A stretch of DNA of 23,708 bases, taken from IMG/VR virus record IMGVR_UViG_3300042310_000088, positions 1 to 23,708 of that record; one strand, 5' to 3'. Below the pieces are notes generated by a model, which saw only the letters and a program-made list of their open reading frames with translations, was not told where the DNA came from and searched no databases. This document shows, one piece after another, positions 443-4,889 of the stretch. The DNA is from a virus. Both the position numbers and the translations under genes were made by a program. How positions within the stretch are numbered: the stretch's first letter is position 1; the number at the start of each line of letters is the position of its first letter.

Positions 443-534
443 ATTTTCAGTAGTGCATGACTGATAAAAAATCAAACTTATTAACCTCGTCTGTAAGTAG
501 CGATGCACCGCTCTTACGGATTGAGGTTTTTTTT
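443..534 (+). ncRNA. Structured leader / small RNA with possible loop-loop kissing, ending in a terminator
   Basis: About 92 nt lie between the predicted start of transcription and the end of a T-tract. A 5' hairpin has stem 447-451/460-464 (TCAGT/ACTGA) and loop AGTGCATG. A 3' hairpin (483-528) has the six-base apical loop ATGCAC (503-508). Bases 453-458 (GTGCAT) are exactly complementary to that loop, so six kissing base pairs are possible. The 3' hairpin is also the terminator. The RNA could be a free small RNA or an attenuating leader of the replication operon, whose first start codon is only 10 bases beyond the T-tract. I do not recognise a known riboswitch class. No protein-coding potential is apparent. 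Confidence 0.55.
483..534 (+). terminator. Intrinsic terminator upstream of the replication operon
   Basis: The outer stem AACCTC (483-488)/GAGGTT (523-528) encloses the inner stems CTGTAAG (491-497)/CTTACGG (513-519, one G-U pair) and AGCG (499-502)/CGCT (509-512). Eight T residues follow (527-534). This is a strong Rho-independent terminator shape. Because the promoter at 406-437 lies before it, it can attenuate the downstream genes as well as end the methyltransferase transcript. Confidence 0.8.
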
Positions 535-4622: not shown

Positions 4623-4633
4623 ATAAAAAATAA

Positions 4634-4666
4634 TTAGGATATATTAAAACTTTAATATTATATTTG
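4634..4666 (+). promoter_or_regulatory. Promoter with TATATTTG, leaderless
   Basis: -7 element TATATTTG at 4659-4666 lies exactly four bases before the ATG at 4671. The -33 region is weak (TTAG at 4634-4637, 21 bases upstream). It would start a new transcript for the block of small genes after the exonuclease. Confidence 0.55.
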
Positions 4667-4670
4667 CATC

Positions 4671-4889
4671 ATGAAAAACAAACAACACACATTTCACTTT
4701 TGGTCATTATTAATAGACGAGTATTTAGAAGTAACCTTTGAGTATTGGAAAGACCTTAACGAGTTTGACCAATCACAATTATACTTTCAAGTAACCGAAA
4801 TTAACTCAGGTGCTGAAGTGCCAAACAAAGTTAAAGAGGAAATAGACGAGTACATTAACAATGAAATTTACAACTTATTAAACGATTAA
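4671..4889 (+). CDS. Hypothetical protein, 72 aa
   Basis: A small acidic protein (MKNKQHTFHFWSLLIDEYLE...), aromatic-rich in the first half and with an acidic helix at the end (KVKEEIDEYINNEIYNLL). No signal peptide or membrane segment is visible, and I do not recognise the family. The start ATG is four bases behind a TATATTTG promoter element, and the following gene begins one base after its stop, so it is probably the first cistron of a small operon running to about 6060. Confidence 0.65.
   Translation: MKNKQHTFHFWSLLIDEYLEVTFEYWKDLNEFDQSQLYFQVTEINSGAEVPNKVKEEIDEYINNEIYNLLND

Follow-up and report, generated by a model that had tools for sequence, protein, structure and literature searches.

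Organization of the leader and the replication operon

The window, i.e. the whole stretch of DNA analysed here, comprises the 23,708 bases of the virus record IMGVR_UViG_3300042310_000088. Its replication operon codes for a DUF6291 protein, DnaB, NinG, a Sak-like annealing protein and an exonuclease, with the DnaB helicase gene (1150–2421) and then NinG located 3′ of the DUF6291 gene. The product of the latter also shows a weak match to phrog_6451 ("primosomal protein"), and its homologues in Olleya and Flavobacterium phages are annotated as "replication protein". The following features were identified at the head of the operon:

406–437, + strand: Bacteroidetes-type promoter, with TTTG (406–409), an N20 spacer and TATATTTG (430–437), from the sequence
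447–464, + strand: hairpin P1, TCAGT (447–451) pairing with ACTGA (460–464) around the 8-nt loop AGTGCATG (452–459), from folding
453–458, + strand: kissing segment A, GTGCAT, within the P1 loop; exact reverse complement of 503–508, covarying in homologues
465–482, + strand: A-rich single-stranded linker between P1 and P2, TAAAAAATCAAACTTATT in the window (family consensus AAARAAATTA), from alignments
483–528, + strand: terminator-like hairpin P2, with lower stem AACCTC...GAGGTT, an upper stem and a 6-nt apical loop, from folding
503–508, + strand: kissing segment B, ATGCAC, which makes up the apical loop of P2; exact reverse complement of 453–458, covarying in homologues
527–534, + strand: T8 following P2, the U tract of a putative intrinsic terminator, its first two T paired in the stem, from the sequence
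545–1153, + strand: first gene of the operon, DUF6291 (PF19808, phrog_19415), a probable replication protein (Pfam E 2.4e-18; phrog_19415 E 1.1e-56)

An initial annotation, made from the sequence alone, had described the segment between promoter and first gene as the leader of a phage replication operon, and the genes for DUF6291, DnaB and NinG found downstream agree with this. The promoter that it had placed before the hairpins is present and is of the Bacteroidetes type (TTTG/TATATTTG) rather than of the sigma-70 type, a scan for which reached only 9/12. In homologous leaders TANNTTTG lies at about the same distance 5′ of P1, and the commonest spacer to a -33 TTTG (one mismatch allowed) is 19 nt (19/58 leaders). 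Transcription would be expected to start at approximately 441–443. The AT-rich promoter stretch recurs with 82% identity at 4631–4669 of the window, directly 5′ of the gene at 4671, where it is not accompanied by a kissing leader.

The region 447–528 is predicted to fold into P1 (loop AGTGCATG), the A-rich linker and P2 (loop ATGCAC). The folding energy of the 443–534 strand is -29 kcal/mol (z = -4.83), a value that none of 200 shuffled sequences equalled. The hairpin loops are complementary as originally proposed, GTGCAT and ATGCAC being exact reverse complements; likewise, the second hairpin ends in eight T (527–534), and the ATG of the first gene (545) follows 10 nt past the T run. A simple terminator pattern gave no match on the P2 of the window, because of the bulges in this hairpin. 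Few kissing duplexes of the family are as weak as that of the window (-6.3 compared to a median of -10.65 kcal/mol), and the six-base complementarity of the window is in itself unremarkable, since 18% of mismatched leader halves also contain one. The case for a kissing pair rests on the homologues.

The view that the element belongs to no known class was borne out, as no Rfam family matched the window at gathering score; ten loci scanned yielded one tRNA only. No description of this leader family was found in the literature, nor any paper on cis-acting RNA control in Bacteroidota phages.

Homologous leaders in phages and bacterial genomes

Homologues were collected from 80 viral loci containing a DUF6291 relative, from further sets of viral contigs and bacterial genomes, and from six named phages. 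Many of the homologous leaders have the same plan and different loop letters. A finder that requires a promoter, segment A and, enclosed by a stem, a segment B complementary to it matched 25 of 38 promoters located directly before DUF6291. Of the 1,379 promoters elsewhere it matched 22, and most of these also head that operon, lying one gene further upstream. Among 139 distinct loci it matched 83, a few of which (e.g. L058, L159, L167) are false or represent another motif. P1 is present in 57 of 72 canonical leaders (median 6 bp), P2 has a median of 17 bp in this set, and the commonest loop size is 8 in both hairpins, a figure biased by the enclosing stem required for B.

A DNA similarity search with the leader itself returned weak promoter-like matches only. 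RNAalifold analysis of a MAFFT alignment (A2) revealed zero consensus pairs because P2 is misaligned by sequence; covariation was therefore measured by swapping leader halves and in a tighter subfamily alignment (see below). Mean column identity over 39 leaders is 40%, and what is conserved lies mostly in the promoter, the linker and the T tract. Since so little beyond the architecture is conserved, sequence searches have missed the family. A broad promoter-linker pattern applied to viral contigs returned 77 stretches, mostly coding, with five scored matches (one doubtful) and one leader recognized by eye. A pattern built solely from the P1 loop and linker of one subfamily, and thus blind to both the gene and the loop pairing, retrieved 17 viral stretches, the majority of which are complete kissing leaders.

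The hairpin P2 is followed by a U tract in most members of the family: at least 7 T in the 10 nt past the outermost GC pair were found in 84% of 58 non-redundant leaders, compared to 7.8% of shuffled controls. In some cases (L010, L026, L066, L139) the tract is interrupted, so termination may not be universal. The linker motif AAAR-N(1–2)-WTT occurs in 34 of these 58 leaders (10.75 expected), and a ACATTATA stretch is present in one subfamily. Purine-rich internal loops recur in P2, namely AGUA/GAA (9/58 leaders) and UGA/GAN (13/58). The former has the letters of a bulged-G (sarcin-ricin, loop E) module in L085, L086, L101, L102, L114, L147, L148, L150 and L169. The distance from P2 to the first start codon has a median of 20 nt (range 7–56).

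Among named phages, the leader was identified in Cellulophaga phi13:2 and phi19:3, Flavobacterium 11b, Olleya Harreka_1, Flavobacterium elemoC and Flavobacterium FCL-2, as well as in FCV-1 (Flavobacterium) and FCOV-F56/S2, whose kissing pair differs from that of FCL-2. Searches of phi10:1, P12024S and the initial 50 kb of crAss001 did not reveal it. The genes directly behind the leader include ones for several unrelated proteins of replication type (DUF6291, Lin1244_N, BT4734-like_N and Phg_2220_C), and in FCV-1 the second gene encodes HTH_36. Comparison of FCL-2 (L197, approximately 37,400–37,700) with FCV-1/FCOV (L198–L200) showed that similarity ends near the promoter, and that the leaders, kissing pairs and following genes all differ. 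To judge from these sequences, it is as if leader and replication gene had been swapped as one unit.

Some phages carry two or three leaders, each with a different kissing pair. The phages of loci L089, L114, L129, L139, L141, L147, L148, L008, L010 and L079 contain further kissing leaders, each with its own loop pair, that precede other small genes of early type at a distance of 1–4 kb from the DUF6291 gene.

DUF6291 was detected in only 3 of 395 Bacteroidota genomes, and the subfamily linker pattern in none of them. A role in prophage immunity was rejected on these grounds, the rarity of the gene family in bacterial genomes making a function in lysogeny unlikely.

Two other conserved structures were encountered in these loci. 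In L058, L062, L076 and L159 a different leader replaces the kissing one upstream of the DUF6291 gene. Its elements are an outer stem and a small hairpin containing TTTAGCGG; TTCAATGAGGTT comes next, and further downstream a complement resembling a pseudoknot (L058: TATACG/CGTATA). This leader was without an Rfam match in the three loci scanned. A second small hairpin, with the consensus AGTTTAT-N-GGTAKCTTAAAACC, is located 8–10 nt 5′ of the start codon of a small MAKFELKFLD-type gene in L086, L092, L099, L101, L107, L114, L151 and L163, and changes in its stem keep the pairing (CGGT/ACCG, CCGT/ACGG).

Pairing between the two loops

The conserved architecture with loop-loop pairing is almost certainly real, and the window holds one member of a large uncatalogued RNA family. 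Since the finder itself selects complementarity, an unselected test was run with 41 non-redundant leaders chosen only by a promoter lying 80–130 nt before a start codon; this test is free of the bias introduced by the enclosing stem. The longest complement between nt 1–36 and nt 46–100 had a mean length of 7.29 within leaders and 2.49 when the halves were swapped, and the highest mean reached in 10,000 permutations of the leader halves was 4.37. At least six complementary nt were present in 39 of the 41 leaders (18% with swapped halves), the set including the four of the different motif (L058, L062, L076, L159).

Covariation was also examined within one subfamily, of which 13 leaders were aligned by sequence alone. 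In this alignment 89.7% of the cells of the kissing helix were paired, compared to 28.8–43.1% in slid registers; the helix showed 24 double changes (6.7 after shuffling) and a covariation score of 0.595 versus 0.178. Leaders L010 and L073 are identical except at 3 of 95 positions, two of which form a compensating kissing pair (G-to-C and C-to-G in the two loops); L144 and L146 provide another natural compensated pair, and L066 and L080 have wholly different kissing pairs in a frame that is otherwise about 90% identical. In most related leader pairs the kissing bases are either identical or changed together, and overall they evolve no faster than the rest of the leader (10.6% vs 12.3%). The loop letters vary between phages yet change together, which indicates that the loop pairing is conserved. 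Covariation in homologues had been named in the initial annotation as one check, with loops varying independently as an outcome that would speak against its reading; the paired leaders, compensated pairs and covarying helix answer it in favour of the pairing.

In unconstrained folds the unpaired probability was 0.73 for A and 0.82 for B, compared to 0.44 for an average stretch, and both segments lay in hairpin loops in 27 of 58 leaders; these leaders came from the finder, whose enclosing-stem requirement for B biases the unpaired probabilities. In the same, similarly biased set, most loops are as long as the kissing helix or a few bases longer. The sizes therefore fit a structure in which both stems and the kissing helix coexist, which argues for stabilization of P2 rather than competition with it. 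Of the two effects on terminator folding originally envisaged, stabilization is thus favoured; competition is less likely, as the segments are mostly single-stranded in the folds and the loops can accommodate kissing together with both stems.

Possible function and relation to known systems

The leader is a new family of structured phage leaders and, as to kind, a structured regulatory leader. A conserved architecture, covarying loops, preferential folding of one strand, a U tract and a position before replication-type genes characterize it, and the conserved loop pairing is probably a switch on phage replication genes. We propose, with a probability of roughly 0.45, that it is a cis-acting attenuator, in which P1 is clamped onto the terminator hairpin by the contact between the loops, and this contact determines how much transcription continues into the replication genes. 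RNA polymerase would start at about 441–443 and make P1, the A-rich linker and P2 in turn. The P1 loop (A) would then pair with the apical loop of P2 (B), the kissing helix coexisting with both stems. With P2 and the U tract serving as an intrinsic terminator, part of the transcripts would end at about 534, giving an RNA of approximately 90 nt, and the remainder would read into the operon. The kissing contact may set the extent and speed of P2 formation, and hence the amount of replication protein; a phage or host factor that bound the kissing complex or a loop would alter read-through.

In support of the attenuator, a GC-containing hairpin and U tract before the first gene, present in 84% of the 58 leaders, is the general layout of attenuators based on intrinsic terminators. 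A point against it is that the folds gave no consistent alternative pairing that could act as a mutually exclusive antiterminator, segment A pairing with loop rather than stem bases of P2. The initial annotation is supported in part; the free small RNA that it offered as an alternative is conceivable. Its suggestion of ligand sensing found no backing, as the leaders (mean identity 40%) have no aptamer-like conserved core beyond the linker, the subfamily-specific stretch and the two recurrent internal loops. Two other modes of control were considered and rejected: (i) leader-peptide attenuation, since ATG frames of at least 8 aa occur at chance frequency (25 of 58 leaders; 23.4 expected by shuffling), and (ii) antisense-RNA control, since antisense promoters are likewise at chance in these leaders (antisense TANNTTTG downstream in 7/58, 7.45 expected; within the leader in 5, 3.7 expected).

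The tight start-codon spacing also fits translational control. The 5′ kissing fold, possibly bound by a phage replication protein, could govern ribosome access or protect the 5′ end of the mRNA, much like the pseudoknot of the T4 gene 32 leader, termination being incidental. Besides the spacing, P1 begins only a few nt from the expected 5′ end, the purine-rich internal loops of P2 are typical protein or tertiary contact motifs, and some P2 hairpins have poor U tracts. Nevertheless, we consider this reading somewhat unlikely, because control of translation alone would not need a U tract, which the family carries far above the control level. Unlikely, too, is a trans-acting RNA, i.e. a terminated RNA of approximately 90 nt whose loops would base-pair with newly emerging leaders, from either the same phage or a relative, and which would tune their termination or translation. 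Two copies could pair with each other, A being complementary to B, and P4 and IsrK offer a precedent for a short leader RNA that acts on a longer transcript of its own locus (PMC4825925). Kissing pairs are, moreover, sometimes wholly replaced in similar leaders (L066/L080), and several leaders within one genome use different pairs (L147, L163, L139, L141). However, at equal concentration the intramolecular pairing should win, the kissing bases show no accelerated evolution, antisense promoters are at chance, and the scarcity of the gene family in bacterial genomes makes lysogenic immunity unlikely. Equally doubtful is a related idea, that the loops serve as an address, with a kissing pair particular to each operon and a short terminated RNA that reads only leaders with a matching pair. 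If this were true, such leaders would constitute orthogonal RNA feedback controls on phage replication, their specificity switched by compensated loop substitutions, much as in plasmid incompatibility groups.

Also weighed was an RNA antiterminator, a two-hairpin complex that would bind RNA polymerase in the manner of HK022 put and allow read-through of its own and later terminators of the early operon. The leaders do lie directly after early-type promoters heading long operons, have two hairpins and keep their structure despite little sequence conservation; yet loop-loop pairing is not a known requirement of put RNAs, and the leader itself includes a terminator-like hairpin, which makes this explanation quite improbable. 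A feature acting at the DNA level is very unlikely and is not favoured. A and B are inverted repeats approximately 50 bp apart before replication genes, and might be bound by a protein or form part of a replication origin, with the RNA fold as a by-product. However, they sit in loops closed by separate stems, the element keeps its place and direction between promoter and start codon, and folding favours the + strand over its complement in 49 of 58 leaders (p = 2.5e-8); furthermore, 51 of the 58 leaders have distinct kissing-pair sequences, unlike operators of related repressors. A chance six-base match in an AT-rich leader with an ordinary terminator would suffice for the window, given its frequency in mismatched halves; for the family this explanation is refuted by the complementarity of 39 of 41 leaders with its compensating changes, and for the locus as such it is scarcely credible.

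Whichever its mode of action, a compact leader of approximately 90 nt is common to phages with unrelated replication genes, in a group of viruses whose cis-acting RNA control is little studied. Because it is present in cultivated phages it is directly testable, and the compensating changes that support the loop-loop helix allow clear mutation tests. The finding suggests that similar families based on loop-loop contacts may be hidden in other viral genomes.

Several known RNAs share features with this leader. The put RNA of phage HK022, which forms two hairpins at the start of the early transcript, acts in cis and suppresses termination via RNA polymerase; it shares the two early 5′ hairpins and is not known to form kissing loops. 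The pseudoknot in the T4 gene 32 leader, a nucleation site for gp32 in translational repression, is likewise a 5′ tertiary fold on the mRNA of a phage replication gene and is not known to include a terminator.

According to the account of satellite phage P4 in PMC4825925, complementary elements (CI RNA/seqA-seqC) lie in the untranslated leader of the replication operon, with premature termination. P4 CI, as described there, and P1 c4 resemble the present leader in having complementary untranslated elements and premature termination. In those systems, however, a separate short RNA pairs in trans and silences a prophage, whereas here the complementary elements are two loops of one RNA, found mostly in phages that were not found as prophages; the P1/P7 c4 antisense RNA model (RF01695) had no match in the window. 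In Gifsy-1, a promoter and terminator give rise to the short IsrK RNA with read-through into the operon (PMC4825925), a plan similar to that of the present leader, but IsrK switches on translation of its own long form in trans, belongs to enterobacterial hosts and is not described as having kissing of the P1/P2 type. The pseudoknot-containing rep leaders of IncB, IncI-alpha and IncL/M plasmids, in the portion of the literature cited in PMC10724649 that bears on them, have a hairpin loop that pairs with a downstream element before the replication initiator gene and controls its expression. The position and the loop-to-downstream pairing are as here; the plasmid leaders are countertranscript-controlled, whereas in the present leaders antisense promoters and leader peptides are not enriched and a terminator-like hairpin carries B in its loop.

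The corrinoid riboswitch model (RF00174) was matched neither by the window at gathering score nor by the leader when hits with E values as high as 5 were considered, nor by any of the ten loci, and the leader lacks a corrinoid aptamer core. The riboswitch has a large aptamer and a conserved kissing sequence (UCCCG), whereas the leader described here is approximately 90 nt long, has a variable kissing sequence and precedes phage replication genes. In the riboswitch, a kissing loop has been tested and stabilizes the regulatory hairpin (P13), steering an RBS hairpin or a terminator (PMC10653944). The likeness is therefore one of working principle only: in the L5-L13 contact, as in the leader of the window, loop-loop kissing joins an upstream domain to the regulatory hairpin.
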